Shown: positions 19 to 19,393 of the stretch, piece by piece | How positions within the stretch are numbered: position 1 is the first letter of the stretch | Layout: the number at the start of each line of letters is the position of its first letter | Virus record (IMG/VR): IMGVR_UViG_3300024273_001952 | Coordinates: 1-21,344 of that record | Reading direction: 5' to 3' (one strand) | Origin: a virus | DNA length: 21,344 nt | Program-made: the position numbers and the translations under genes | The notes under the pieces: generated by a model | Database searches by the model: none | Told to the model about the DNA's origin: nothing | The model's input: only the letters and a program-made list of their open reading frames with translations

Positions 19-759
19 TTATATATTTTTATTTTTTTTCAAAACATCTAATCTATTTACCCTTTTCATTATGTAGAAACCTCTTATTTTAAAGAATTTT
101 TTAGTACTTTTTAAAAAGTTATTATAGTTATAGTGTTTGTTAAATGCAGGTATGTCATATGACTTTAGTGTTTCAAACTCTTTTTCTGCATCTACATTTT
201 TATATATTTCAATATCTATATTCATCATTTTTTTTGATATTGATTTATAGTTTATATATGAACTGTCTAAAAAGTGATTCTCTAAAAATGAAGGTATTTC
301 CAACTTTGTGCTATAATAATACATCATAATTATATCACTTAATTTAGGGAATACAACTAGTTCTTTAGAGATTAATTTTGAAAAATCTTCAGTATACAAT
401 TGTTTGGCTTCTTTAGTTTCTTTTATGGGCGTACCTTTATTTTTGAAAATACACCAATCTACATAAGCGTGTTTAATCTCATGTATTACCGCATCCAGAG
501 TTAGATATGAAAAATTTAGATATAAATAAACTCTATATTTGTTATCAATAAATCCAGAATTGCTATGGTCATAATGAATGGTTTCAGAATGTTGTATTAT
601 CCACTCGTCTACTTTTATGTCATTGTATTGACTTGTGATATTTCCTGGAATGGTTATTTTCAACTCATCTAGATTGACGTTGTTGTTTTCAAAGTGCTCT
701 TGTATAACTTTTACAATATCATTTGAAACTATATGTACAATTTTTGATATTCCTAACAT
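19..759 (-). CDS. Putative HExxH-type zinc metallopeptidase, 246 aa
   Basis: The ATG at 759 opens a 246-residue protein. The clearest signal is H93-E-I-K-H97 within an amphipathic helix (context LDAVIHEIKHAY), the HExxH signature in which two His bind zinc and Glu is the catalytic base of zincin peptidases. It is preceded by a beta-like YRVYLYLNFSY segment (about 75-85), as in minimal zincins where an edge strand lies next to the active helix. The third zinc ligand is not obvious. The C-terminal third is Lys/Asn/Tyr-rich. There is no signal peptide or membrane segment. The gene follows the terminator of the small gene upstream by only a few bases, with no Shine-Dalgarno sequence, so it depends on read-through or on a promoter overlapping that terminator. 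Substrate and role are unknown. The motif is seen directly; enzymatic activity is inferred. Confidence 0.55.
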   Translation of the reverse strand: MLGISKIVHIVSNDIVKVIQEHFENNNVNLDELKITIPGNITSQYNDIKVDEWIIQHSETIHYDHSNSGFIDNKYRVYLYLNFSYLTLDAVIHEIKHAYVDWCIFKNKGTPIKETKEAKQLYTEDFSKLISKELVVFPKLSDIIMMYYYSTKLEIPSFLENHFLDSSYINYKSISKKMMNIDIEIYKNVDAEKEFETLKSYDIPAFNKHYNYNNFLKSTKKFFKIRGFYIMKRVNRLDVLKKNKNI

Positions 760-767
760 ATAATAGC

Positions 768-799
768 AAAAAAAAAAAGAAGGTCATACAACCTTCTTT
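768..799 (-). terminator. Rho-independent terminator after the 75-aa gene
   Basis: A 9-bp perfect stem (776-784 with 791-799, containing AAGAAGGT/ACCTTCTT) and a 6-nt loop are followed, read on the minus strand, by a run of about 11 T (complement of the A run at 768-778). It lies 22 nt beyond the stop of the 75-aa gene and ends just before the start of the metallopeptidase-like gene. Confidence 0.85.
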
Positions 800-820
800 C
801 TTATTTTAAAGTTGTTTTTC

Positions 821-1048
821 TTATCTATTATTATATAGAAAGTTTTTTAAATTTTTAATACTGTTTGCATACCCAAGAGGGTCACAAGAAGCATTTTCGG
901 TTAAATAGTCATTAACTAATTTTAATAACTCTGGTGTCTCTTCAAAAAGAAACACAATTTTTTTGCCTAATTTCTCAACCTCATACTTAAAACCCTTAAG
1001 TTTTAAAAAAGCTGACAAATAAAGGTCTGATGTCTTGTACTTGTTCAT
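821..1048 (-). CDS. Small DUF5659-like protein, 75 aa
   Basis: This is a complete 75-residue ORF with an ATG at 1048. The pattern is YKTSDLYLSAFLKLKGF at the N-terminus, then a KKIVFLFEE strand, then a C-terminal SIKNLKNFLY helix. It matches from memory a family of very small phage and bacterial proteins annotated as DUF5659 (YKT-DLYLAAFL--KGF, then F-F, then a closing LK helix). The function of the family is not established. The gene has its own strong terminator downstream and a 94-nt A/T-rich region upstream, so it may be transcribed separately from the fibre genes. There is no Shine-Dalgarno sequence; the leader is A-rich on the coding strand. Confidence 0.6.
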   Translation of the reverse strand: MNKYKTSDLYLSAFLKLKGFKYEVEKLGKKIVFLFEETPELLKLVNDYLTENASCDPLGYANSIKNLKNFLYNNR

Positions 1049-1142
1049 TTTTTTCTTTATTTATATTACTCGTTTTTTGTTAATAATAAATATCATAATT
1101 TTTTAGATAATAGATTCAAAAAATGAAAAAAATTAGAAAAAA
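1049..1142. other. A/T-rich intergenic region with possible minus-strand promoter
   Basis: This 94-nt gap separates the 237-aa fibre gene from the 75-aa gene, both on the minus strand. It contains one copy of TTAATAATAAATA (1080-1092), a 13-mer that also occurs just upstream of two other minus-strand genes. It also holds a short A-rich direct repeat, AAAATTAGAAA, near 1128-1148. No convincing hairpin terminator was seen for the fibre gene. Confidence 0.3.
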
Positions 1143-1856
1143 TTAGAAAAATCTATAGGTACATTTTATTCTTGAACTTTTCATAGGCGGGTAGTTAAAT
1201 ATAATTTTATTTTCAACCATCACATAGTCAGCCATTTGACTTTCATCTTGTAATAAACCGTTTAAATAAACATGTTCAGAATTTAATTCAGGATAATTTT
1301 GTACAATAAACTCTTTATTAATACCATCAGCCACACCAGAAGGTATTTCCTTGTCAGATATATTTAGTTCTGGAGATATAGTGTCCACCATTCTATAGGA
1401 GCATCTAACGGTAGAGCCTAGAAAGGGAGGGTAATTAAAAGTTATTAAATTATCAATTATGATATAGTCATACCCCACCCCAGGGTCTTGCAATAAACCG
1501 TTTAAATAAACATGTTCAGAGCCTATTTTTGGCTCTTGAGACAATTCAAAATTGGTATTCATACCATCGGTTAATCCGTTTGGAATTTCTCTGTCATAAA
1601 AAAGTTTATCATCTCTATGTTGTATGGAAAGGGGTTGCCAGTCATTTATTGTAAATTCCCAATTTGAATTTTTTAACACAAAAAAATCATTAGTCTCTAA
1701 TATGTATGCCAACATCCCAGACTTTCTTCTTTCTGAAGGAAGATTGTTTAGTTGAAACATATTATTGAAAACACTATATGCCCCAACGTCCATTGGGGTG
1801 ATGTAGGGATTGCTATTTATTACACTTTTGCCGTTATGTGTTATAAGTGCTGGCAT
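1143..1856 (-). CDS. Tail fibre protein with two 80-residue-period repeats, 237 aa
   Basis: Residues 38-75 (NLPSERRKSGMLAYILET, then a W-containing strand) follow a pattern common in phage fibre proteins, where a conserved RR-GM--YV--T module precedes the receptor-binding part. Two tandem repeats follow, residues 90-157 and 170-237, offset by exactly 80 residues. They share SEHVYLNGLLQD (113-124 and 193-204), an F-NYPP strand and a closing C-YR. Similar HVYLNG-LQ modules occur in shaft regions of phage fibres. The protein ends immediately after repeat 2. The gene lies last in the minus-strand tail cluster, 50 nt after the 350-aa fibre gene. A role as fibre shaft or distal adhesin is inferred; the repeat is directly visible. 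Confidence 0.65.
   Translation of the reverse strand: MPALITHNGKSVINSNPYITPMDVGAYSVFNNMFQLNNLPSERRKSGMLAYILETNDFFVLKNSNWEFTINDWQPLSIQHRDDKLFYDREIPNGLTDGMNTNFELSQEPKIGSEHVYLNGLLQDPGVGYDYIIIDNLITFNYPPFLGSTVRCSYRMVDTISPELNISDKEIPSGVADGINKEFIVQNYPELNSEHVYLNGLLQDESQMADYVMVENKIIFNYPPMKSSRIKCTYRFF
1246..1520. repeat. Near-identical 35-nt direct repeat, 240 bp apart
   Basis: Positions 1246-1280 and 1486-1520 are identical except for one base (1251 versus 1491). They encode the shared SEHVYLNGLLQD core of the two protein repeats. The surrounding repeat is conserved mainly at protein level, so these 35 nt are unusually well preserved in DNA. Confidence 0.9.
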
Positions 1857-1865
1857 AATTTACTT

Positions 1866-1878
1866 TTAATAATAAATA
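1866..1878 (-). promoter_or_regulatory. Shared A/T-rich 13-mer upstream of the 237-aa gene
   Basis: TATTTATTATTAA on the minus strand ends 9 nt before the ATG at 1856. An identical copy ends 10 nt before the ATG at 9577, and a third lies at 1080-1092. A TATAAATA octamer, identical to the T4 late-promoter core, is also present on the minus strand at 1884-1891. In A/T-rich DNA either match could be chance; the repeated spacing to two starts is what makes it worth listing. Confidence 0.3.
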
Positions 1879-1906
1879 GTAATTATTTATAAATTATTGT
1901 TAATTT

Positions 1907-2959
1907 TTAGCTTCTAGCCATTCTAATCCAAATGTCATCATCAACAGCTGTAAACCAATAGTTTGCATTGTAATACGCCTGGCCTTGGTATGTCCCAGAA
2001 ATGGTAGAGCCTGTATACACGCCAGAGGGACTCCAATTGCTAGAATTGTCTAACAAAGTAATTGTAGAAGCTGAAAGCGTGTAAGATTCCAACATAGGTA
2101 TTTCCTCTACCGTACCACCAGATTGGGTTACGGTTCCTATTACAGACCTCCCACCCAAGTCTTGCATCTTGTCAAATGTGACACTATCTGGTTGAATTGT
2201 GGTATTTCCAGAGTAGTTTATTAAAATATCACCCGTCAAATCAACTCCTTGTGGTGTGTTAGATAAATTTCCAACAAAAACTCTTCCTTGATTTAAAGAG
2301 TTTAGCGCAGCACCGTCTGTAGAGAATATGTCGTAAAGGTCTGTAGAGCCAGATGTAAGAATTCCAGAAACCTCAAGGTCACCACTTATGGTTAATCCAC
2401 TAAATTCATCTATAACAATATCTAAGGTTGAAGCATCACTTTTAGTTAGTGTTATTTTATTTGAATTATCATAAGATAAAGAGTTGGTAAATATATCTGG
2501 TCCACCTACAGCACCTACTGGTGCGAATATGTTATATAGATTAGTTCCTGCTGAATAAATTATACCATTATTTTCTGCTAATCTTGCATTTTGAGTATAT
2601 AGAGAATTGCTTTGAGATGCATTCACATTAATTCCGCCAACTACTACTGAATTTTGCACTCCATTTAAAACATCATTTCCAACACCTCCTACTATTGCAG
2701 AGTAGTCAGCATTTGTAGCTACATTATTATTTAAACCACCTAAAACAATTGAATAATCACCACCAGCATTGCTGCCTGAATCTTTTGATACAATAGAATT
2801 ATTTCCAGAACCTTCCTCAAAAAGACCAACAGTAGTACTACCAGTGCCTACAACAATGTTTTGAACCTCTCGTTTTAACGTTCTAAGGTTTACTGCATCC
2901 TTATCGTATTTGGGGTCTGATAAGTTTAATCCTCTACTATTTCTAAAGTCTGTTCCCAT
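1907..2959 (-). CDS. Tail fibre protein with YadA-head-like repeats, 350 aa
   Basis: The N-terminus (about 12-32, NLSDPKYDKDAVNLRTLKR) resembles the DP---DAVN---- segment found at the start of many phage fibre proteins. Residues 54-112 hold three rungs of the form S-IVLGG-NN, SAIVGG-GN and NSVVVGG, the left-handed beta-roll repeat of YadA-type trimeric adhesin heads. The linker NSLYTQNARLA (118-128) corresponds to the T-FV--LK linker of the neighbouring paralogs. The C-terminal 220 residues are different: a short internal duplication (SAGTNLYNIF 136-145; SGSTDLYDIF 203-212) and a Gly/Ser/Thr-rich beta region ending YWFTAVDDDIWIRMARS. It is the most divergent and longest of the four. A trimeric host-recognition fibre is inferred. 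Confidence 0.6.
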   Translation of the reverse strand: MGTDFRNSRGLNLSDPKYDKDAVNLRTLKREVQNIVVGTGSTTVGLFEEGSGNNSIVSKDSGSNAGGDYSIVLGGLNNNVATNADYSAIVGGVGNDVLNGVQNSVVVGGINVNASQSNSLYTQNARLAENNGIIYSAGTNLYNIFAPVGAVGGPDIFTNSLSYDNSNKITLTKSDASTLDIVIDEFSGLTISGDLEVSGILTSGSTDLYDIFSTDGAALNSLNQGRVFVGNLSNTPQGVDLTGDILINYSGNTTIQPDSVTFDKMQDLGGRSVIGTVTQSGGTVEEIPMLESYTLSASTITLLDNSSNWSPSGVYTGSTISGTYQGQAYYNANYWFTAVDDDIWIRMARS

Positions 2960-2975
2960 TTTTTTTTAGAATTTT

Positions 2976-3779
2976 TTATAAACCAGTACCAATTACTGAA
3001 AAATGAGGTGTAGGAGTGGTTGGAGAAGGAAAGTTAGTGTCTAATCCCAAATAGGTTATAGTGACATGTTGATAATTGCTGCCACAACAATCAAGGCTAA
3101 GCCCAGATAATTGATTGTTTATAAAAAAATCATTAAGACTTCCTAATCTTATGTTACCAAGGAATCCACCATTATCAATAATTACTAACTCAACAGTCCT
3201 TCCTATTTGGTCATCACTAATCATAAGTCTCAAATCAAGAGAAAAATCAGTACTCGTAGGGAGGCCGCCTGTATTTGTTGAATTATCTGTAATTAACAAA
3301 ATCTCATCATCTAAAGAAATTACAGGAATTTTATACTTATCTGGCTCATAAGGTTCTAGTGTAAGATATCTAGTATTTCTTATTCTACTACCTGTGCTTT
3401 TTAAATCTGGAACAAATGTTGTATTGTCAGTTACACCAGTTATATTTGAACCCCCTACTATTACTGAGTTTGAAGTTCCGCTAAGAATATTGTTTTCACC
3501 ACCTATTATTGCAGAATTTGTAGAATTATTTTTTATTAAATTATTATTACCTCCAATTATAGAGTTTTTAGTCCCGCCAGTAATTATGTTATTCTTACCT
3601 CCCAAAATAACCGAGTAGTCCGAAGACGATGAATTTGTATCATCTCCACGAGAAACTATAGATTGAAATCCTGTACCACCAGACCATATTTCAGTTCTAC
3701 CAGTATAAACATCGTTTATTTTTTCTCTAGCAGTATTTAGAGAATCTGTAATAAGTATAGGGTCAATTTTGCAGCTCAT
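2976..3779 (-). CDS. YadA-head-like fibre paralog, 267 aa
   Basis: Residues 9-40 carry the block shared with the next two genes: a short N-terminus, then N-AREKINDVYTG with IWSGGTG. Residues 56-115 hold four beta-roll rungs of the type SVILGGKNN, NSIIGGNNN, NSAIIGGENN and NSVIVGG. A linker T-FVPDLKSTGSRIRN (120-135) follows, then a C-terminal beta-rich domain (140-267) ending FSVIGTGL. An adjacent Cys pair (DCCG) occurs in that domain. YadA-type heads form trimeric left-handed beta-rolls that bind surface ligands; no membrane anchor is present here, fitting a phage fibre. The gene starts 20 nt after the previous stop and has no Shine-Dalgarno sequence. Confidence 0.65.
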   Translation of the reverse strand: MSCKIDPILITDSLNTAREKINDVYTGRTEIWSGGTGFQSIVSRGDDTNSSSSDYSVILGGKNNIITGGTKNSIIGGNNNLIKNNSTNSAIIGGENNILSGTSNSVIVGGSNITGVTDNTTFVPDLKSTGSRIRNTRYLTLEPYEPDKYKIPVISLDDEILLITDNSTNTGGLPTSTDFSLDLRLMISDDQIGRTVELVIIDNGGFLGNIRLGSLNDFFINNQLSGLSLDCCGSNYQHVTITYLGLDTNFPSPTTPTPHFSVIGTGL

Positions 3780-3799
3780 ATATATAAATATTAATTAAT

Positions 3800-4582
3800 T
3801 TAAACGATTCCATAAACATAAAATTGTGAATTTCCTGCATTGTTTAGTCCTGCATTCAGTATATGTACTACAGAAAGTGTGTTTGTACTTGAAATTTGAA
3901 GTGGGGCGTTTACTGGTCTATCATTTATTCTATAGCCATTAAAGAACCCAATAGCAAAGCCTAAGAACAAACTTCCACTAATAAAATTAGTCACTCTCAA
4001 CTCAACAATTTGTCCACTTCGGGCACTGCCTGCTAATCCATCTAACGCCAAAGACCAAAATATCGAAGGAGGTATTGCGCCTCCTATGTTTATGTCTACA
4101 AATACTATATCATCACTTGCCATTATAGCACTTGAGACATCATTGTGAGCCGTTATAGTGGGTTCAATTCTCACATTTCTAACTCTACTTTTTGTTGTTT
4201 TTAAACCTTGAACAAAAGTAGTATTACCTATATTTTTAGATATTATTGAATCGCCTCCTAACGCAACCGAACGCGATACATTAGACACGTAGGTGTCTCG
4301 ACCTCCAATAATGGCACAATCAAATTCTGCAGTAGAGTCATATATTACATTATTTTCACCTCCAACAATAGCAGAATACTGAGTTGAGCCAGAAATTAAA
4401 TGACCAGTCCCACCCAGTATGGATGAGTAGGTTGATTCCACTAAGTTCTCTGTACTATTGTCAGCAATTATAGAATTGCTACCCGTACTGGCTGACCATA
4501 AATTAGTTACTGCAGAGTAAGCGTTATTTATCTTAACTCTACCTTCATTTATTGTGTCACTACTTAATATTAATTCGCTCAT
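3800..4582 (-). CDS. YadA-head-like fibre paralog, 260 aa
   Basis: The layout matches its neighbours. The N-terminal block is SSDTINEGRVKINNAYSA with LWSASTG (7-34). Four beta-roll rungs follow (53-116; SSILGG, SAIVGGENN, CAIIGG, RSVALGG), then the linker T-FVQGLKTTKSRVRN (122-136) and a C-terminal beta domain ending FYVYGIV. The N-terminal block and linker are the best conserved parts among paralogs, while the C-terminal domains differ strongly, as expected if the N-terminus docks on the tail and the C-terminus binds a receptor. That division of labour is inferred. It sits 21 nt after the stop of the 292-aa gene in the same transcription direction. Confidence 0.65.
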   Translation of the reverse strand: MSELILSSDTINEGRVKINNAYSAVTNLWSASTGSNSIIADNSTENLVESTYSSILGGTGHLISGSTQYSAIVGGENNVIYDSTAEFDCAIIGGRDTYVSNVSRSVALGGDSIISKNIGNTTFVQGLKTTKSRVRNVRIEPTITAHNDVSSAIMASDDIVFVDINIGGAIPPSIFWSLALDGLAGSARSGQIVELRVTNFISGSLFLGFAIGFFNGYRINDRPVNAPLQISSTNTLSVVHILNAGLNNAGNSQFYVYGIV

Positions 4583-4603
4583 AATCTTTTTTATAATATT
4601 TTA

Positions 4604-5482
4604 TTACGCTCCTGTGCCATACACCTCTAAGTAAGTTGTGTTTCCCACAATTTTTGACACGACTATTCTCACGCTAACATAATTTGAGTCACTGATTGTA
4701 AATGGGGTACTTATAGGCAAGTTGTTGATATAATAGTCAACACCAGCACTAACGTCTGCGCCTAATATTAATGGTTGGACTGAAAAAAGCCCAGTTATCC
4801 TGTGTATAATATCAATCACTCTGCCCACTTTGGAGTTGCCAAAAACTAAATTTGACACATCCACATTCCATTCGCCGACACCGGGCGTCGATAAGTTAAA
4901 GTTATAAACAATAAAGTGCTCATCTTCATCTTCTATTTTAAAGCTGGCAAAACCACCGCTAACATATGAACTACTTAACACCGTTACCTTTTTATTATTT
5001 CTAATTCTAGCACCAAAAGACTGTATGTTTTCAGTGTAAACTGTATCAGAAGTATTGCCAGTCAATCCTTGTCCACCCAAAATAACTGTATTACTAACGT
5101 CAGAAGTTCCTGTAATAGCATTGTCTGCCCCTCCAACAATTACACAGTTTTCAATATCTACATTACTACCATTGTGAGTAATTAAATTTGAATTACCTGC
5201 AACAATAGAAGAGTTTTTTATAGTTGTATTAGAAGGGTCCTGTCCAAATATAGTATTCCCCAAACCAGCCAATATTGAACTATATTCTACTACAGAAGAG
5301 TTTGTGGCACTATTTCCACTTATTATATTGTTTCCATCATTATTAGTTATAATATTTTTTGTAATACCAGTAAAGTCGCCAGTGCTACCAGTCCATATAC
5401 AGTCTTGGGTATAAGCATCATTTATGATAACCCTACCTTGTTCTGTTGTGTCTCCACTAAATAATAATTCTGTTACTGGCAT
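4604..5482 (-). CDS. YadA-head-like fibre paralog, 292 aa
   Basis: The N-terminal block is SGDTTEQGRVIINDAYTQ with IWTGSTG (9-35). An Asn/Thr/Ser-rich stretch precedes four beta-roll rungs (67-143; SSILAG, SSIVAG, CVIVGG, TVILGG) with longer turns than in the other paralogs. The linker VYTENIQSFGARIRNN (148-163) leads to a C-terminal beta domain ending LEVYGTGA, close to the GTGL end of the 267-aa paralog. The gene starts 8 nt after the stop of the 501-aa gene. It is the first of four consecutive beta-roll fibre genes, probably made by tandem duplication and divergence. Confidence 0.65.
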   Translation of the reverse strand: MPVTELLFSGDTTEQGRVIINDAYTQDCIWTGSTGDFTGITKNIITNNDGNNIISGNSATNSSVVEYSSILAGLGNTIFGQDPSNTTIKNSSIVAGNSNLITHNGSNVDIENCVIVGGADNAITGTSDVSNTVILGGQGLTGNTSDTVYTENIQSFGARIRNNKKVTVLSSSYVSGGFASFKIEDEDEHFIVYNFNLSTPGVGEWNVDVSNLVFGNSKVGRVIDIIHRITGLFSVQPLILGADVSAGVDYYINNLPISTPFTISDSNYVSVRIVVSKIVGNTTYLEVYGTGA

Positions 5483-5490
5483 ATCTGTTT

Positions 5491-6996
5491 TTATATAAGT
5501 ATTTGTCCTTGTACATCTTCTATTGTTAAATCGCTACCCCAATTTAATCTAATGGTAAAGTCTTGTCCTGTAAGGTCTTCGTTTACTTCTAACACATATT
5601 CTTGAGTCACGTATCCATATTTAGACACTTCAAGCTGAAGTGCACCACCTTTTATGTCACTTATTGAGTAATTTCCATTTGAGTCTGTAATTGCAGAGAA
5701 TACTGCACCAGTACCACCTCCTAGAGGCTCATTGGTACCTTCTTCTATAACATTTTCATAAGGTGCATCAACTCCTAGTTCTACATCTGATGTTGTAGTA
5801 ACAACAGTAAATTTGACAGTGGCACCAGAGACTGAACTTCCAAATAATTCATTTTGATAAATTCTACCAGAAATATCATATATACCATCAGTAGCAGTAA
5901 ACGCATTTTCTGCCCTACCCCAAGTTGTGACATTTTGCTTTACCCCAAATACATTTGTAATTTCTTTAGTGTTTCCAACCCTGTATAAAAAGTTAGAATC
6001 TGGACTTAATGGTGTTGAGAATGTTCTTATAAATTCTGGCTCACCCTCTTGTCTTTGTATGTCAAAAACAGTAGAAGCTGTAAATCTAACATCATCAATA
6101 TCATATGTTACTTGTAACTTATAATAATCTCCATCAGACACATTGTTAAAACTGAAAATGGGAGAAAAAGTATCTAATTGACCTTGAACACTTGGCTCAT
6201 CACTAAGTACGTCTATGTTTGGTTTTTGGGGCGCTATAAAATAAGTAAATAAAGCTCCATGAACCGTAAGCCCAGAGAAAATTCCTTTATTTATAACCTC
6301 TGAATTCCTACTTGTTTGAAGTAAAAAGTTGCCATCCTCACTAAGTCCTGTTAGTGTTATATTTGTCGCAACTCCTTCGCTTAAAATTTGATACCCCCCT
6401 AAAGTTTTATCTCTTTCTAAGGGAAATTCATATCTAGTATCTACAAAATATTGAGACTTATCAGTTAAAAGGCTTTGAGAAAATTCATCTAACGGCTTTA
6501 CTACTGAAGGTAATGTTAAGCTGTATAAAGGCGTTGTTATCGTAGAGCCTGTATCATATAGTGAAATTAAAGGTGTAGACAATAAGCTGCCTATACTTTC
6601 CTTTGTCAAAGTTTCCCCAGTAGCAGCTATCGTTTGTCCGCTAGATGGCAATATCTCCTCCCCTAAGTAGTTAAAACTTTGAAACACTTGATTATAAGTT
6701 GAAAATTCAACTTTATATATATCATATATAGTTCTTGTTATAGAGCTAAACGAAGAAGTGTTTGCTGTATAATTATAATTTAATGTTTTTGAATTGTTTA
6801 TATTAACAGATATACCATCAACAACTTGTTCGTAATAATTAAATGTGGCACCCTTTAGTGAAAATAGTGGAACATTAAAAGGTTTCGGTTCCAACTCGGG
6901 TTCAAATATGTTGGGTATAGTATTTTGTAAGAAGACTTGAGAAACACCATTGTTTTCACCAATTGTACTAGATACTATTTGTTTATTTATTGACAT
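5491..6996 (-). CDS. Tail-associated protein with carboxypeptidase-regulatory-like domain, 501 aa
   Basis: Residues 1-365 are beta-rich, Ser/Thr/Asn-rich and not recognised. Residues 373-475 look like a carboxypeptidase-regulatory-like Ig fold: YDISGRIY, VSGATVKF, TDSNGNYSISDIKGG and LEVSKYGYVTQEY, the standard G-V-GA-V / TD-NG-Y / G-Y progression. Such domains are common on phage tail and fibre proteins, where they bind surfaces or brace the structure. A long Gly/Glu-containing insert (about 402-432) splits the usual domain. The start lies one base after the TGA of the gpI-like gene (TGATATG), so the two are almost certainly co-translated. A structural tail role is inferred from the domain and neighbours. 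Confidence 0.6.
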   Translation of the reverse strand: MSINKQIVSSTIGENNGVSQVFLQNTIPNIFEPELEPKPFNVPLFSLKGATFNYYEQVVDGISVNINNSKTLNYNYTANTSSFSSITRTIYDIYKVEFSTYNQVFQSFNYLGEEILPSSGQTIAATGETLTKESIGSLLSTPLISLYDTGSTITTPLYSLTLPSVVKPLDEFSQSLLTDKSQYFVDTRYEFPLERDKTLGGYQILSEGVATNITLTGLSEDGNFLLQTSRNSEVINKGIFSGLTVHGALFTYFIAPQKPNIDVLSDEPSVQGQLDTFSPIFSFNNVSDGDYYKLQVTYDIDDVRFTASTVFDIQRQEGEPEFIRTFSTPLSPDSNFLYRVGNTKEITNVFGVKQNVTTWGRAENAFTATDGIYDISGRIYQNELFGSSVSGATVKFTVVTTTSDVELGVDAPYENVIEEGTNEPLGGGTGAVFSAITDSNGNYSISDIKGGALQLEVSKYGYVTQEYVLEVNEDLTGQDFTIRLNWGSDLTIEDVQGQILI

Positions 6997-6997
6997 A

Positions 6998-9577
6998 TCA
7001 ATCTGGGTAAGTTATTGGAGTTAAGTCATTAATTTCCACCTCATAGTCAGATGAAATAGTGTCTTCTTCATATATATTAGTGTTTGTGTTTGCTAAATTT
7101 GTATTTAAATTTACCGTTTCAACTAATTTAATTTGAAAATCTGAAATGTCAACATTACCTTCAGCTTTATTAGAAACATCAGCATAAAAGTAATTGGATG
7201 TTATTGTTGGGTCAAATCTATTTGATACATTAACAGTGAAATCAGAAGCTTGTATAACGGGCTCAAATACGGGTGGTATTTCCACCTTAAACTCAGAGCC
7301 ATCATTTATACCTGGTCTATATACAAATCTATGTCTATTAAATGCTGTATTTCCATATACAGTACCATATGAAGACAGTATGCTTGTAGATGGCACTAAG
7401 AAAGGTACTAAATCTTGGAAATTTCTTTCTAGAAGCGTCAAGAACTTCTCTAACTTTCTAAATGTTAGCCTATTAGATTCTTGATTGTTAGTCCACAACA
7501 TGTATGTTACATATATTTTCTTTAAATCCCTGTAAGTACCTGTTGTTCCATTTTGCCAACCACTTGTCTTTCTATTTCTGGGGTCTACATTGTTTTGGTA
7601 TATATAGTCTAACCATTCATATATAGTCATACCAGTTAAATTGTCTGGCACAACTGTATTTATATCTTCAACTTGCCACTCAAAAGGAACCGTCAACCCA
7701 GAGAATACAGAAGAGGAAGAGCCCCATTTCCACCATCCATAACCAAATTCATACCAATCCATAACATCACACTCTATAGCTCTTGACGGCCTTAAGTCTA
7801 CGTTTACTTCTTTGCTATTTACAATACTTCTTGTGCTACCTGTTTTTATTTTTAAATTATCAACTCTTTTAAATGGTTCATATTCACTGCCTAATCCGTC
7901 AATAAAATCGCTTCCATTACCCCTACCTGAGCCTCCAATTTGAAAAATCTGAGAATTTACATCTGGGTATCCATCATTAATTAAAAGATTGCCATTTTCA
8001 TCTAAAGGTTTTGCATCTTGCAAATCTTCCGAACTTAAGTCTTCAAATAAGTTGGCAGGTATAAATGTTTCTGGGTCATCTGGATTTTCTGGAATGAATA
8101 GGTCGCTCTCTAAAGGTGTTATATCATCATCTACAGTGTCCAAATTTAAATCAAACTCTCTTTTTACTTGCTGTACATCATATACAAATTCTTCTAAGTT
8201 AAATAGACATTTGGGTGCCCCTATTAATTTAAATACAAAACTGACAGCATCTCTAGTTCCTCTATTTTTGTAAAGCCAAACTATATTTACCATCATTCTT
8301 CTCCAAATCTCTAGATTATATTCTTCAAAAGCTTTACCAGTTGAATCAAATTCACCAGCTAAATAATCTATAACATTTTCTGCATTAAATGCATTTGGAA
8401 GTTTTGCCCCTAACATATCTGCCAACCTAGACAAAAACTTATTTGGAACACTTTCTGAACCATCATAACTAACAGAATGAGCATAAGCCATACCATCTAT
8501 ATATTGTTTTATGGAATCAAATTGCTCACTATAAACTGTTGTTAATTTTCTGTATATTTTATCTTGAGAGTCTAGGTCGGTAAAATTTTCAGGAATCATA
8601 GTCCTGAGCATTATATTTGTCTTTTCCTCGTCAATAACTCTAGCATTAGATAGTATGTTATTTGCATAGGATTCAAACCCACTTCCATAGCTATCTGGAG
8701 AGAATCCATCAATAGTCCTAGGCCAATCAAATTGAACCCTTTCATAAGTGTCTGTTTCAGGCTCGGGAACCAAGAAGTTACCATCATAAATTAATTGATT
8801 CTCTAAGTTGGGTAAAGTTCTTTTAAATTGCCCCAGTCTTTGTCTGGTTGGTCTTATGTATATTGGGTAATTAAATGTAATGGCAGAAGATGGTTCTGTC
8901 GGCAATAATATTCCCTTGATTTTAAATTCTAAATATTGATTATATAAGTAATCGTATGAGATTATTTCATGAATATCATTCATAAACGTATTTCCAGTAG
9001 TCGTACTTTGTGAATCTCCACTTAATTGTATGGCAAAAGAGCTTGTGTCATTATATAAATCTATTTGAGATTCAGATTGTTCAGACCTACCTGATACATA
9101 TATAACATCTCCTTGATTAGTTATAGAAGAAAGTGAAATTTTAAACAAGGAAGTTTGAGCTACCAAATCATGAGAATAATCATATATAGTTACTCCACTG
9201 CTTATGGATTTAGATAGTAGTGCGTATGGAAAATTGTCTACTACATTATTTATTGCATTAGCCACTTTAGTGTAAAAGGAGCCAAAATATGCGTAACTAT
9301 TAGCGTCTTCTGGGTTTAAATTTAATTCATTTGATTTTGTGGTTATAATTTTTAAAACATCAAAATCAGCACTTTTTGAATTTTCTATAGTTTCGTAAGG
9401 CCCAAATGAAAGCGTAGAAGCACTTACTGACTCAGTGAACTTTTCATTAGACGGACTGCTATCAATATTAAAAGTTCCAAACGTAAATACAGATTCTGCA
9501 CTAGTTGCAGCGAATCTAGTGTCTCTACCAGGAGTTGGTTTTATGTCTAAAGTTGTACCACTATCTATTGATGTCAT
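6998..9577 (-). CDS. Baseplate/tail protein with P2 gpI-like region, 859 aa
   Basis: The central region, about residues 325-470, resembles the P2 gpI family of baseplate tail proteins. It has MLRTMIPENF, a helix around YSEQFDSIKQYID, FLSRLADMLGAKLP, and the diagnostic WRRMMVNIVWLYKNRGTRDAV followed by FKLIGAPKC (425-457). The KNRGTR-AV-----LIG pattern is the family hallmark. In P2-like phages gpI sits at the baseplate edge and helps attach tail fibres. Here the protein is several times longer than P2 gpI, with a 320-residue beta-rich N-terminal extension and a 390-residue C-terminal extension containing W-rich segments (about 610-665). It is the first gene of the minus-strand tail cluster and lies next to the divergent control region. 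Family assignment is from motif memory; no alignment was run. Confidence 0.65.
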   Translation of the reverse strand: MTSIDSGTTLDIKPTPGRDTRFAATSAESVFTFGTFNIDSSPSNEKFTESVSASTLSFGPYETIENSKSADFDVLKIITTKSNELNLNPEDANSYAYFGSFYTKVANAINNVVDNFPYALLSKSISSGVTIYDYSHDLVAQTSLFKISLSSITNQGDVIYVSGRSEQSESQIDLYNDTSSFAIQLSGDSQSTTTGNTFMNDIHEIISYDYLYNQYLEFKIKGILLPTEPSSAITFNYPIYIRPTRQRLGQFKRTLPNLENQLIYDGNFLVPEPETDTYERVQFDWPRTIDGFSPDSYGSGFESYANNILSNARVIDEEKTNIMLRTMIPENFTDLDSQDKIYRKLTTVYSEQFDSIKQYIDGMAYAHSVSYDGSESVPNKFLSRLADMLGAKLPNAFNAENVIDYLAGEFDSTGKAFEEYNLEIWRRMMVNIVWLYKNRGTRDAVSFVFKLIGAPKCLFNLEEFVYDVQQVKREFDLNLDTVDDDITPLESDLFIPENPDDPETFIPANLFEDLSSEDLQDAKPLDENGNLLINDGYPDVNSQIFQIGGSGRGNGSDFIDGLGSEYEPFKRVDNLKIKTGSTRSIVNSKEVNVDLRPSRAIECDVMDWYEFGYGWWKWGSSSSVFSGLTVPFEWQVEDINTVVPDNLTGMTIYEWLDYIYQNNVDPRNRKTSGWQNGTTGTYRDLKKIYVTYMLWTNNQESNRLTFRKLEKFLTLLERNFQDLVPFLVPSTSILSSYGTVYGNTAFNRHRFVYRPGINDGSEFKVEIPPVFEPVIQASDFTVNVSNRFDPTITSNYFYADVSNKAEGNVDISDFQIKLVETVNLNTNLANTNTNIYEEDTISSDYEVEINDLTPITYPD

Positions 9578-14166: not shown

Positions 14167-14196
14167 TTTACTTTTTTTTATAATATTATAATTTAG
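14163..14196 (+). promoter_or_regulatory. Possible Bacteroidota-type promoter for the RuvC-like gene
   Basis: TTTG at 14163-14166, overlapping the terminator T run, is followed after 22 nt by TAATTTAG (14189-14196), which matches TAnnTTTG at five of six defined positions. Transcription would start a few bases before the ATG at 14208, which argues for that ATG rather than the GTG at 14196. This is a weak call because the background is A/T-rich. Confidence 0.3.
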
Positions 14197-14207
14197 TGAA
14201 AAAAAAT

Positions 14208-14789
14208 ATGACTTTAGGATTAGATATTTCTACAACAGTAATTGGAATTGCTCTTTTTGACAAAGATGATAAGCTTTGTAATTTAGAATACATTAAATTT
14301 AAACCAAAGACAAACTTATTTCAAAGATTAGATGATTTTGTTGAGCATTTTGAAAAGTTAAGTTCTGCAATTAATTTAGAAAAAGGTAAAAATAAATTAA
14401 AACACATATCAATAGAAGAGCCACTAAAAGCTTTTAAGGGTAAGTTTTCAAATGCGGAAACGATACAAAAACTAACCACAATGAATGCTTTTGTTAGTTT
14501 GTATGTTTATAGAAAATTTAAGATAGAGCCAAGGTACTATAATGTACAAACTGCAAGAAAAACAGCATTTCCAAATCTTACACTACCCAAGAGTGCTCCA
14601 AATAAAAAGTATTTAATTTGGGAAAAAGTCGTTGAAAAAGAGCCCCAAATAAATTGGGTTTACTCTAAAAAAACTCACAAACTTAGAGATGAGAATTTTG
14701 ATATGTCTGATGCTTATGTTGTTGGATATGCAGATATTGTTACTAGACATATAACTGAAAAGAATATCATAAAAGAAATAGAGTTGTAA
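14208..14789 (+). CDS. RuvC-like Holliday-junction resolvase/nuclease, 193 aa
   Basis: The protein opens MTLGLDISTTVIGIALFD, the first strand of an RNase H-fold RuvC nuclease with catalytic Asp6. A second acidic site is in HISIEEPL (E70/E71), and the C-terminal pair is in FDMSDAYVVGYAD (D165 and D168, spaced three apart as in RuvC D138/D141). Length is close to that of bacterial RuvC. These enzymes cut four-way junctions and, in phages, resolve branched replicative DNA before packaging. A GTG at 14196 would add four residues, but the ATG puts the conserved strand at the usual distance from the start. It is followed by the primase and SbcD-SbcC genes. Exact substrate is inferred. Confidence 0.75.
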   Translation: MTLGLDISTTVIGIALFDKDDKLCNLEYIKFKPKTNLFQRLDDFVEHFEKLSSAINLEKGKNKLKHISIEEPLKAFKGKFSNAETIQKLTTMNAFVSLYVYRKFKIEPRYYNVQTARKTAFPNLTLPKSAPNKKYLIWEKVVEKEPQINWVYSKKTHKLRDENFDMSDAYVVGYADIVTRHITEKNIIKEIEL

Positions 14790-14841: not shown

Positions 14842-15906
14842 TTGGAAAATAATAAGCAAATAGTCACATCTATATTAGAAAGAATATTCGGTTCACCTAA
14901 GAAAACTGGTGACATTAAAGAGTATGAGTTCAATTGCAAAAGTAGAGTTTGTAGAAATGATGAGGATAAATATAATCTTGCATACAATTCTCAAAATCAC
15001 ATATTCCAATGTTGGAAATGTAAATATAAAGGTCACGTACACAAATTGGTTTCAGAATATGGAAACAAAGACGATTTAGATAGGGTATCATTAGTTGTCC
15101 CAAGAAAAAAAGCCTTTAAAAAAGAAAAGAAGTCAGAGGAGTATAACGACATGATTTCATGCTCTTTGCCAGAAGGTTTTAAATACATGTCCAAGAAAAG
15201 TGATTCAAAATATTACAAAGCTGCCTTAAGGTACATGACTAAAGAGAGGGGTTGGGACTGGGATAAGATAAAAAAGCACAATATAGGATATACAGAGAAT
15301 AAGGGTAATAGAAAGTATAGAGTAGTATTCCCTTCATATAATGAATATGGTCAAATAAATTATTATGTTGGAAGAACATATTATGATGTCGTAAAGCCTA
15401 ATTACATGGGACCCCCAAAGGAAGAGGTTGCTAGAACTGAAATTATATTTAATTCTAAAAATGTAAACTTTGATATACCCGTTTTTTTAGTTGAGGGAGT
15501 TTTTGATGCAGCATGTATATACAATTCTGTACCTATGCTTGGAAAGGAGCCAGCTAATGTAATTATAAAGAAGTTGGTAGAACACAACACTAGGGTCGTT
15601 TTGTGCTTAGATGAAGATGCTCTTTATGATAGTATAGAAATTTACAATAAACTTAGCTCTTACGGATTAGATGTTTACTTTGTCGAAATACCAGACGATA
15701 TAGATGAGTTTCATAAAGCAAATGGAAAACAAGCTACAATTGAACTTTTGAAAACTTGTAGAAAGTTAGATTTTCAATATATGTTTCAAAAATTTGCACT
15801 TAAAGAAAGTGTAAAAAAGAGAGATTGTGTAGATGAGAAAGGTTTAAAAAGTGAGTGGGAAAAAATGAAATCAGAAATATTAAAAGACCAAAATGAGCAC
15901 AGTTAA
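14842..15906 (+). CDS. DnaG-type DNA primase (zinc finger + TOPRIM), 354 aa
   Basis: This enzyme would make RNA primers for phage DNA replication. An N-terminal zinc ribbon has C32-x4-C37 and C57-x2-C60 (FQCWKCKYKGHVHKLV), the DnaG/T7-type primase layout in which the second pair sits in a CW-C---G pattern. A middle RYRVVFPSYNEYGQINYYVGR segment (about 158-178) corresponds to the DnaG catalytic N-terminal part. The TOPRIM fold shows FLVEGVFDA (E219) and LCLDEDA (D257, D259), the metal-binding acids. No helicase domain is fused, and none is adjacent. The start is TTG at 14842; an in-frame TAA at 14830 excludes a longer form. Its 3' end overlaps the SbcD-SbcC start by 14 nt, so translation is probably coupled. 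Confidence 0.8.
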   Translation: MENNKQIVTSILERIFGSPKKTGDIKEYEFNCKSRVCRNDEDKYNLAYNSQNHIFQCWKCKYKGHVHKLVSEYGNKDDLDRVSLVVPRKKAFKKEKKSEEYNDMISCSLPEGFKYMSKKSDSKYYKAALRYMTKERGWDWDKIKKHNIGYTENKGNRKYRVVFPSYNEYGQINYYVGRTYYDVVKPNYMGPPKEEVARTEIIFNSKNVNFDIPVFLVEGVFDAACIYNSVPMLGKEPANVIIKKLVEHNTRVVLCLDEDALYDSIEIYNKLSSYGLDVYFVEIPDDIDEFHKANGKQATIELLKTCRKLDFQYMFQKFALKESVKKRDCVDEKGLKSEWEKMKSEILKDQNEHS

Positions 15907-18900
15907 AATAAATGATTCAATAGCGCATATATCTGATGTTCACATTAGGTATGGCAGTAGACATAAGGAGTATAAAATTGTTTTTCAAAGAACTATAGAT
16001 GATTTAAAATCTCAAAATTTAAAAAGAATTGCAATAACAGGAGATTTATTTCATATAAAAATAAATCTATCTCCTAATGCCTTAGAGTTGGCTGGATGGT
16101 TTCTGAAGGAACTCTCTCAAATAGCGCCAGTTGACTTAATATTAGGTAATCATGATTTAAATCTACAATCTTTAGACCAAGGAAATTCTATTGAGCCTAT
16201 AGTTAAATTAATTAGTGATGGGTATATTGTTGAAAAAGGTGTTGAAAAATTGCCAAAACACAAAGGGAGTGGACATGGTATATTCTTCTTTCTTCACAGC
16301 GGTTTCTATGAAATAAATAACGATATAGTTTATGGTATATATTCTTGTTTAGATAATGAGATTTTAACTTTAAATAAAAAAGATAAAAATAAAACATATA
16401 TCGCAATGTACCACGGCCCAGTATATGGTTCAAGGGGCAATAATGGCTATGAGCTACACGATAGCGAATATATGATGAAGCTCAGCACATTTAATAATTT
16501 TGACATTGTAATGTTGGGAGATATACATGAGCATCAGGCTTTTTCACTAAAAACATCAGCGACAGAAAACATAGCATACCCTGGGTCTTTAGTTCAGCAA
16601 GATTATGGAGAAACCATTGACAAAGGCTATATTGTTTGGGATTTAAAAAAGAAGACTTTCTCAAGAAAGTTTATACCTAATGATTATGGCTTTTCTAGCT
16701 TACACATATCCAAAGGAGAGCTTTTTGAAGAAAGGGTGGACAGCTTGACTCTTTCTAATAATCCTAAAAAAACAAAAGTTTCAGTTACTTGGGAGGCTTT
16801 TGAAGAAGATTATTCAGTAGAGAAGGAGAAGCAGATAGAAAAGTTAATAAAGAGTAAGTATGGCTGTGAAGTTATAAACGTTAACTTTAAACAAGTAAGT
16901 AAGCAGGAAGAGATAGACGGAATATCAATTGAGGAAGAAAAAGACTATACTAATGTAGATGAGTTTGAGTCTTTATTGAAAGATTTTGTGGAAAATAGTG
17001 AATATGATAATGAAGAAGAGGTTTTAGAACTTTCTAGAAAAATAGATAAAGAACTAAATCACTCTTCAGAAAAGGGTAAAAAATGGTTCCTAGATGGAAT
17101 TGAAGTTTGGAATCTTTTCAGCTTCCCAGAACAAAAAACTGTTTTTAATTTTAATGAAATGTCTGGGGTTACTGGTATTTTTGGAAAAAATTTTAAAGGA
17201 AAAACTAATTTAATTAGAGCCCTTGTTTGGATTGCTTATAGAAAAATATTGGGAGGAGGAGAGGCTCATAGATTAACAAACATGTATACAGAAAGCGATA
17301 AGGCTGGTGGTCGTGTTTATCTAACTATTGATTCTCAGAAGTTTTATATAGAGAGAACTGTAAAGGTTAGGACTAAAAAAGATGGTACCCCCGATGTTTC
17401 TTATGGAGTTGAATATAAGGTGTTAAAAGAAAATGCTGAGGGGAAAAAGGTTTGGAAATCAATAGACTCTGACAAATCTGCTACTGAAAAAACTGAGAGA
17501 AATAATATTATTATAGAGTCTATAGGAAAGTTTGATGATTTTACAAAAATAGTATTACAAGCCCAAGGTGGTGAGGGAAATTTTTTAGATATGAGTCAGC
17601 AACCTAAAAATGATTTGATAAACAAATACCTAGGTCTTGAAGTTTTTAGAGATAGGTATGATTATGCAAAAAAGATATTCAACGACATAAAGTCAAAACA
17701 AAAATATCTAGGCAGCTCAAAAGAGCATAAAGAATCCATTGCTAAAGAAGAAGTGTTTATAGTTGAAAATAATAAATTATTAAAAAAGTACAAGCAAGAA
17801 AAGTTAGATACTGATAAGTTGGTGGAGGTTCAGGATTCTAAAATATTAGAATTGACGAAAACTTTAATAAAAGTAGAGCCCACAAACTATAAAGATATTA
17901 ATTCTGCAAAAAGTGCTATTGAAAAACTGAAAATACAACTATCTACTAATACGTCAACAGAATCTGAGTTAATTGATTGGGTGTCTTCTAATTTTAAAAA
18001 AGAAGTCCCTAAAGAATCTACATCAAGTGTTGATATAATTAATGATAATCTTAAGCTTTGTAGAAAAAAGTTTGAAACTGAAAAAAATGAATTCAAATCC
18101 CTTAATGAATGGGTAAAAAACAATCCTTTACAGAAAGAAATAGATGTAGAGCCTATAAAAGAAGGCATTTTGAAAGCAGAGTCTGCCCTAATAAAGCTTA
18201 ATGATAAATTAGAGGTTTCTAAGGGGAAGAAGTGTCCTACATGCGGAAATGTTGAACAGAAAGCTGATGTGGATTTGCAAAATGATTGTACACAGAAAAT
18301 TGAGAGAGGCATAAAGTTTATAACAGATAAAAAGTCTGAAATAAAAAAGTCTAAAGATATAAGTAATCATAATATACATTTTGGAAAACAAGAAAACAAA
18401 ATTGGTTCTTTAAAAAATTCTTTAAAAGAAAATAAAGTTAAAATAGATGATTTAAAAAGTGTCTTAGAGTTATCTCAAAAGATTTCTGAAATAAATAAAC
18501 ACAATAGTTTAGTGGAATCTAAAAACACTTCATTAAATACAGCAAAAAGTGAAATACTAAATTTAAAAACAAAGATTGAAAAAATAGAGAAAGATATTTC
18601 TATATTAGAATCTAATAAGAGTTCATTGAAAATTAATGAAAATATAAATTTAGAAATCAAGCTAAATGAAGATGAGAAAAAATCTTTAAGATTAATCATA
18701 AATCAACTTAATGATAAATTGACTTCAATTAAATCAGACTTAAAACTATCCCAGAACAATAAAGAAAATTTAGAAGAAAAGATAGGAACTATAAAAAAAG
18801 CAGAGTCTTCTTTCAGTAAATATGCTATATACTTACAGGCAGTACATAGAGACGGAATTCCTGCAAGAATAATAAGACAAAAGTTGCCTGTAATTAATTA

Positions 18901-19393
18901 CAAAATAAATTCTATTTTGAAAAACTTAGTTGACTTTAAGATGGAAATGACTATAAAAAAGAATGGTGACATTAAGGAGTTGTTTTATTTTAACTCCATT
19001 GAAAAAGATGCCTTACCAATGACTATGGCTTCAGGTGCACAAAAATTCATAGGAAGTGTAGCAATAAGAGACTCCCTTCACTTTGTAAGCTCATTAACTA
19101 AGCCATCACTGTGCATTATAGATGAGGGGTTTGGTGCTCTAGATAACGATTTAACTATAGCTATGCAGTCTGTATTTTATTACTTAAAAGGTAAGTACAA
19201 AAACACTTGGATTATAACTCATAAAAATGAAATTAAAGACTTTGTTGACAACATAATTCAAGTAACTAAAAATAGGTCAACTTTAACTGATGAACAAATA
19301 AAAGAAAACCCTATGGCAGGAATATCTGTGTTTGATGTAAATAATAGAAATAATATTGTTTCTAAAAGTGTTCCTAAAGAAGTTTCTGCTTAA
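15893..19393 (+). CDS. sbcCD: Fused SbcD(Mre11)-SbcC(Rad50) nuclease/ATPase, 1166 aa
   Basis: One uninterrupted reading frame contains both subunits of the SbcCD/Mre11-Rad50 complex (T4 gp47 and gp46), which processes DNA ends for recombination. The N-terminal metallophosphoesterase (1-240) has D15-x-H17, GD51, GN86-H87-D, H174 in YHGPVYG, GD210-IHEH214, then AYPGSLVQQDYGE. A capping and acidic helical region (about 270-395) corresponds to the SbcD C-terminus. The ATPase begins near 397 with Walker A GKNFKGKT (431-438) and a Q-loop QAQGG (about 555). Coiled coil flanks the zinc hook C781-PT-C784, then come the signature MASGAQKF (about 1045-1052), Walker B LCIIDE (D1077, E1078) and H-loop H1110. 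All key residues appear intact. Coiled-coil arms of about 170-190 residues are shorter than in E. coli SbcC. Stop overlaps the convergent gene by 4 nt. Confidence 0.92.
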   Translation: MSTVKINDSIAHISDVHIRYGSRHKEYKIVFQRTIDDLKSQNLKRIAITGDLFHIKINLSPNALELAGWFLKELSQIAPVDLILGNHDLNLQSLDQGNSIEPIVKLISDGYIVEKGVEKLPKHKGSGHGIFFFLHSGFYEINNDIVYGIYSCLDNEILTLNKKDKNKTYIAMYHGPVYGSRGNNGYELHDSEYMMKLSTFNNFDIVMLGDIHEHQAFSLKTSATENIAYPGSLVQQDYGETIDKGYIVWDLKKKTFSRKFIPNDYGFSSLHISKGELFEERVDSLTLSNNPKKTKVSVTWEAFEEDYSVEKEKQIEKLIKSKYGCEVINVNFKQVSKQEEIDGISIEEEKDYTNVDEFESLLKDFVENSEYDNEEEVLELSRKIDKELNHSSEKGKKWFLDGIEVWNLFSFPEQKTVFNFNEMSGVTGIFGKNFKGKTNLIRALVWIAYRKILGGGEAHRLTNMYTESDKAGGRVYLTIDSQKFYIERTVKVRTKKDGTPDVSYGVEYKVLKENAEGKKVWKSIDSDKSATEKTERNNIIIESIGKFDDFTKIVLQAQGGEGNFLDMSQQPKNDLINKYLGLEVFRDRYDYAKKIFNDIKSKQKYLGSSKEHKESIAKEEVFIVENNKLLKKYKQEKLDTDKLVEVQDSKILELTKTLIKVEPTNYKDINSAKSAIEKLKIQLSTNTSTESELIDWVSSNFKKEVPKESTSSVDIINDNLKLCRKKFETEKNEFKSLNEWVKNNPLQKEIDVEPIKEGILKAESALIKLNDKLEVSKGKKCPTCGNVEQKADVDLQNDCTQKIERGIKFITDKKSEIKKSKDISNHNIHFGKQENKIGSLKNSLKENKVKIDDLKSVLELSQKISEINKHNSLVESKNTSLNTAKSEILNLKTKIEKIEKDISILESNKSSLKINENINLEIKLNEDEKKSLRLIINQLNDKLTSIKSDLKLSQNNKENLEEKIGTIKKAESSFSKYAIYLQAVHRDGIPARIIRQKLPVINYKINSILKNLVDFKMEMTIKKNGDIKELFYFNSIEKDALPMTMASGAQKFIGSVAIRDSLHFVSSLTKPSLCIIDEGFGALDNDLTIAMQSVFYYLKGKYKNTWIITHKNEIKDFVDNIIQVTKNRSTLTDEQIKENPMAGISVFDVNNRNNIVSKSVPKEVSA

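Follow-up and report, generated by a model that had tools for sequence, protein, structure and literature searches.

Organisation of the sbcDC locus

The window, by which we mean the whole 21,344-nucleotide stretch of IMG/VR virus record IMGVR_UViG_3300024273_001952, carries on its plus strand a fused sbcDC gene that follows a DnaG-type primase gene in a run also containing a RuvC-like resolvase gene (Table 1). The 14-bp overlap of primase and sbcDC makes it probable that the two are co-translated. Elsewhere in the window, positions 19–9577 of the minus strand hold a long gene run with at most weak Pfam or PHROG matches (tail fibre, virion structural, carboxypeptidase-regulatory-like); the run probably encodes virion proteins of a little-known group of phages.

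Table 1. Features of the sbcDC locus, in window coordinates.
Feature	Position	Strand	Evidence
RuvC-like Holliday-junction resolvase, same gene run as sbcDC	14196..14789	+	phrog_159, E 1e-6
DnaG-type primase gene immediately before sbcDC (14-bp overlap)	14842..15906	+	phrog_47, E 2e-29
Fused sbcDC gene, 1166 aa	15893..19393	+	Frame, Pfam, PHROG, motif alignment, AlphaFold2, PDB matches
Mre11/SbcD nuclease domain, residues 9–255	15917..16657	+	Pfam Metallophos, motif alignment, PDB matches to Mre11/SbcD
94-bp tract right after GDIHEHQ, codons 215–246, with 20 of 21 substitutions relative to L003	16537..16630	+	Window/L003 comparison
Capping domain, residues 256–341	16658..16915	+	AlphaFold2 fold; SbcD/Mre11 PDB matches reaching residues 331–341
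Predicted Mre11-type helix-loop-helix (Rad50-binding) segment, helices 355–367 and 374–388	16955..17056	+	AlphaFold2 secondary structure
8-residue linker from SbcD to SbcC, residues 389–396	17057..17080	+	AlphaFold2 model; codons 367–422 without a start codon
Rad50/SbcC N-lobe, residues 397–600, Walker A at 17174–17209	17081..17692	+	AAA_23, motif alignment, PDB
Zinc-hook CPTC, residues 781–784, between two coiled-coil arms (about residues 583–984)	18233..18244	+	Motif alignment, AlphaFold2
Rad50/SbcC C-lobe motifs: signature SGAQK, Walker B/D-loop IIDEGFGALD, H-loop H1110	19025..19222	+	Motif alignment

The sbcDC frame runs from ATG to stop over 1166 codons with no internal stop, and encodes Mre11 first and Rad50 second, the arrangement of an R555-type fusion. 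Pfam matches over cut-off were obtained for Metallophos (residues 10–213, E 6e-11) and AAA_23 (residues 407–632, E 1.3e-6), and PHROG 77 (SbcC) spans residues 164–1135 (E 9e-36). When aligned with phage relatives and with the T4 gp47/46 and E. coli SbcD/SbcC proteins, the sequence shows the calcineurin-like phosphoesterase motifs (DxH, GD, GNHD, H and GxxH) at D15xH17, G50-D51-LFH, G85-N86-H87-D, H174 and G209-D210-I-H212, one metal ligand being Asp instead of His. All motifs of a Rad50/SbcC ABC ATPase are likewise present, in agreement with the PDB head matches: Walker A at 428–439 (GIFGKNFKGKTN), the Q-loop Q558, the signature S1047-G1048, the Walker B/D-loop IIDEGFGALD at 1075–1084 and the H-loop H1110. 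The zinc hook C781-P-T-C784 has the expected CxxC form and lies between helices of an antiparallel coiled coil in both the alignment and the structural model.

The earlier note on this DNA had claimed a complete motif set. This stands insofar as every nuclease and ATPase motif occurs, and in order, but two depart from the canonical form: the signature is SGAQK and not SGGEK, and the last nuclease motif is GDIH in place of the GHIH of Mre11/SbcD, with Asp where P. furiosus Mre11 has H206. Each of the 153 distinct fused relatives in the collection keeps GDIH, part of that set having been gathered with a GDIH-containing pattern and one of the scans having made no use of GDIH. The CxxC zinc hook is found in 151 of the same 153.

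Predicted structure

An AlphaFold2 monomer model built from a 54-row alignment (mean pLDDT 82, pTM 0.51) contains both folds in one chain. Together with the single frame, this supports the single-chain SbcD-SbcC protein proposed in the earlier note. Residues ∼4–332 match SbcD/Mre11 structures with Z scores of 23–25, the best being E. coli/S. aureus SbcD (entries 7dog, 4lty; Z ∼25), while residues 396–1151 match the Mre11-Rad50/SbcC heads 3av0, 7yzo and 6s85 (Z 26–28). A capping domain lies within the SbcD match and is followed by two helices (355–388) in the position expected for the Mre11 helix-loop-helix, which we infer to dock on the base of the coiled coil. The SbcD part had been described as running into a Rad50 strand near residue 397, and the model places an 8-residue linker there, with the first Rad50 strand starting at 397. 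This linker fits the 9–12 residues predicted to bridge the Mre11 and Rad50 ends in the T. maritima complex (Yoshida et al., PMC3175470). As this is a monomer model with a pTM of 0.51, the relative placement of nuclease and heads is putative. The closest whole-length viral structural matches are fused giant-virus 'DNA repair exonucleases' and the fused phage proteins of PTm1, pT24 and H9NCG5, the last being 1301 aa, the same length as PAU gp288.

Integrity of the fused frame

An assembly or frameshift artefact joining two adjacent genes has in its favour that many genomes carry SbcD and SbcC side by side, with a 4-bp gene overlap in E. coli, but the same fused frame recurs in many independent contigs. 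It is intact in L001 and L002 (86–87% identity, also 1166 aa) and is kept in more distant contigs, at 73% (L012), 63%, 60% (L016), 41–46% and 23–28% identity, with the isolated phages Mel-JY01, PAU and pT24 in the lowest range. The earlier note had named a stop or a shift of frame between the two modules as grounds for abandoning the fusion; these independent contigs show neither. The artefact reading also sits badly with purifying selection at the junction. In comparisons of the window with L001, L002 and L012, dN/dS of the junction (341–397) is 0.03–0.17 against 0.07–0.10 for the whole gene; the gene stands at about 0.07, the ATPase C-lobe is lowest at 0.02 and the nuclease domain ranges from 0.04 to 0.21. 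We reject an artefact, whose probability we consider negligible, and the fusion in the window is confirmed.

One frame could nevertheless yield a separate SbcC as well, by internal initiation or product cleavage, giving a mixture of fused and free protein. In favour of this are the short, rather variable linker and the internal starts known from other phage genes. Against this, a scan of the window frame found no ATG, GTG or TTG in codons 367–422, and hence none near 17070, where a start used for a separate SbcC would, according to the earlier note, have spoken against the fusion; the first ATG past the junction is codon 423, inside the Rad50 N-lobe just ahead of Walker A. An internal start at the junction is rejected on this basis, and we regard coexisting free SbcC as very unlikely.

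Distribution of the fusion

Pattern scans of IMG/VR each returned at least 540–575 confirmed relatives, and among the fetched loci both modules lie in one frame of 1012–1172 aa at no fewer than 188 loci, encoding at least 153 distinct proteins. The earlier note had left the frequency of such fusions as a question for database searches; these now show that the single-chain form is standard in this phage family. Of the fetched loci, 241 contain a gene homologous to the primase that precedes sbcDC here, and the fused relatives in IMG/VR stand nearly always behind a primase gene, as in the window. The isolated phages that carry the fusion include Microcystis phage Mel-JY01, Sphingomonas phage PAU and Tenacibaculum phage pT24, where the annotation covers one half only ('AAA domain' or 'metallo-phosphoesterase'). 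A second full SbcC-type ATPase was not detected in ten large contigs (134–287 kb). The tree, with only three unfused rows, all long-branched, allows one or several fusion origins.

A tblastn search of plasmids with the fused protein gave no match. Scanning a collection of genome contigs gave six loci. Two are full fused frames, on contigs filed as metagenome-assembled genomes of a member of the Chloroflexi (L092) and of an archaeon (L093), one is a partial frame on a 3.9-kb contig filed under a deltaproteobacterium (L091), and three are short or weak matches. As these short contigs may be viral and have been binned with cellular genomes by mistake, the scan gave no clear cellular carrier.

A recurrent breakage site in the nuclease domain

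In the tree, the loop just past GDIHxxQ (codon ∼215) is a breakage site of the fused gene in at least three lineages, giving an SbcD N-terminal half and an SbcD C-terminal half fused to SbcC. When 80 contigs were chosen solely on residues 1–214, the gene proved fused in 53, split at this site in 7 and cut by the contig end in 19; a further scan recovered the same split contigs and two more split sequences, L185 and L186. The split loci include L006, L161, L163, L171, L141, L177, L185 and L186, and the tree calls for at least three independent breaks. In the huge phage LR756508 (L006:5947-10172) a 305-aa ORF interrupts the gene directly after GDIHKRQ. With its Zn-ribbon-like CxxC pairs and TnsA-like PD-(D/E)XK domain, this ORF looks like a homing endonuclease. 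In the L161 group, which forms one clade, the insert is instead an ORF of ∼300 aa without a clear Pfam family and unrelated to that of LR756508. L177 is split without any insert, with an ATGA overlap between its two genes. The N-terminal pieces share similar tails (…EDELEKYLNSGW…, …ESKVDEYKLEGW…) with an ...E.Y...GW motif. An Rfam search of six loci gave no group I intron at the split site, and scanning with just the N-terminal piece of LR756508 gave no matches. By eye, the insert ORFs L161:5216-6139 and L141:5168-6100 appear glycosyltransferase-like, an odd cargo for a homing site.

The window gene is itself unsplit. The window and L003, its nearest sister among the matches listed, are 99.75% identical over 11.46 kb, a stretch in which 20 of their 21 substitutions lie in the 94-bp tract. 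Their sbcDC genes are identical over the 3404 bp outside this tract, which coincides with the place where relatives are split. T4-like phages offer examples both of co-conversion tracts and of endonuclease-split genes whose pieces reassemble, as with Aeh1 nrdA (PMC2988022), and a recombination or co-conversion footprint would be the natural reading of the tract, although it may be an assembly bubble between strains. A divergence peak at the split site is absent in 22 other close pairs, making the window/L003 tract a single case. That the loop is a recurrent mobile-element target, with the tract as co-conversion footprint of such an element, is a proposal for which we see an even balance of probability.

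Proposed function

The gene very probably encodes a phage R555-type single-chain Mre11-Rad50 (SbcD-SbcC) nuclease-ATPase that would perform gp46/gp47-type end resection for recombination-dependent replication. What the analysis establishes is the reading frame with its domains, motifs and fold, together with its conservation, gene neighbourhood and purifying selection; the fact that the record is a 21-kb fragment counts against this explanation. T4 gp46/47 and SbcCD have established end-processing functions, and it is these, with the neighbouring primase and RuvC-like genes, that suggest the role in recombination-dependent replication. Two copies would dimerise through their nuclease domains and ATP-bound heads, with the helix-loop-helix docked on the coil base and the linker connecting SbcD with the first Rad50 strand. 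Through binding and hydrolysing ATP, the heads would control how DNA ends reach the Mn-dependent nuclease, which would trim blocked or hairpin ends and leave 3' single-stranded ends, and these would feed recombination-dependent replication and repair, as with T4 gp46/gp47, beside the phage primase and RuvC-like resolvase. A one-chain fusion is also predicted to fix SbcD:SbcC stoichiometry at 1:1.

With Asp replacing the second motif-V His in the metal site, metal preference or activity may differ. Carried further, the nuclease could be altered or inactive and the protein mainly an ATP-dependent DNA tether or end clamp, a reading favoured by the invariance of D210 across the clade and by the same change reported for Mimivirus R555. 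It is hard to reconcile with the retention of the remaining metal-binding and catalytic residues (D15, H17, D51, N86, H87, H174 and H212), with the ability of Asp to bind metal and with the nuclease-domain dN/dS given above. We therefore think loss or alteration of nuclease activity unlikely and favour the single-chain nuclease-ATPase.

If the breakage site is a true mobile-element target, a fused enzyme would have been re-split inside its nuclease domain and then reassembled, for which we know of no description in SbcCD/Mre11-Rad50. Repeated re-splitting of the nuclease domain would offer a testable 'genes-in-pieces' case, and the single chain would be convenient for studying the structure and mechanism of Mre11-Rad50. 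The breakage site is the newer result here, the fusion itself having been published in 2011 (PMC3175470).

Comparison with known systems

Yoshida, Claverie and Ogata described Mre11/Rad50 fusions in Mimivirus R555 and 12 others, including a Bacillus phage, and argued that the many R555 homologues of aquatic metagenomes belong to phages and lie next to primase genes (PMC3175470). The window fusion is a further case of this kind, common in aquatic phages, and its phage contig with adjoining primase matches their prediction. Fused genes predicted from aquatic metagenomes are thereby tied to actual phage contigs, in a family where the single chain, beside a primase, is the standard form. By its published description, Mimivirus R555 has the same Mre11-Rad50 order in one chain, a capping domain and helix-loop-helix, a short linker and, as here, Asp in place of His in its last nuclease motif (PMC3175470), whereas the carrier here is a tailed-phage contig and not a giant virus; the sequence is divergent, at 19–22% in structural alignment to the top giant-virus matches.

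Mel-JY01 (WWT39521), PAU gp288 and pT24 gp019 also combine the nuclease and the Rad50 head in a single gene, in Mel-JY01 with a primase-like gene close upstream, but they are only 23–28% identical to the window protein, those of PAU and pT24 are longer (1301–1310 aa) and PAU retains the canonical GHIH. T4 gp47/gp46 and E. coli SbcD/SbcC have identical enzymatic modules in identical order, and by analogy the window protein would share their presumed end processing and role in recombination-dependent replication. In T4 and E. coli, in contrast, the modules are two genes and two polypeptides, with two small genes separating 47 and 46 in T4 and sbcD and sbcC overlapping by 4 bp in E. coli.
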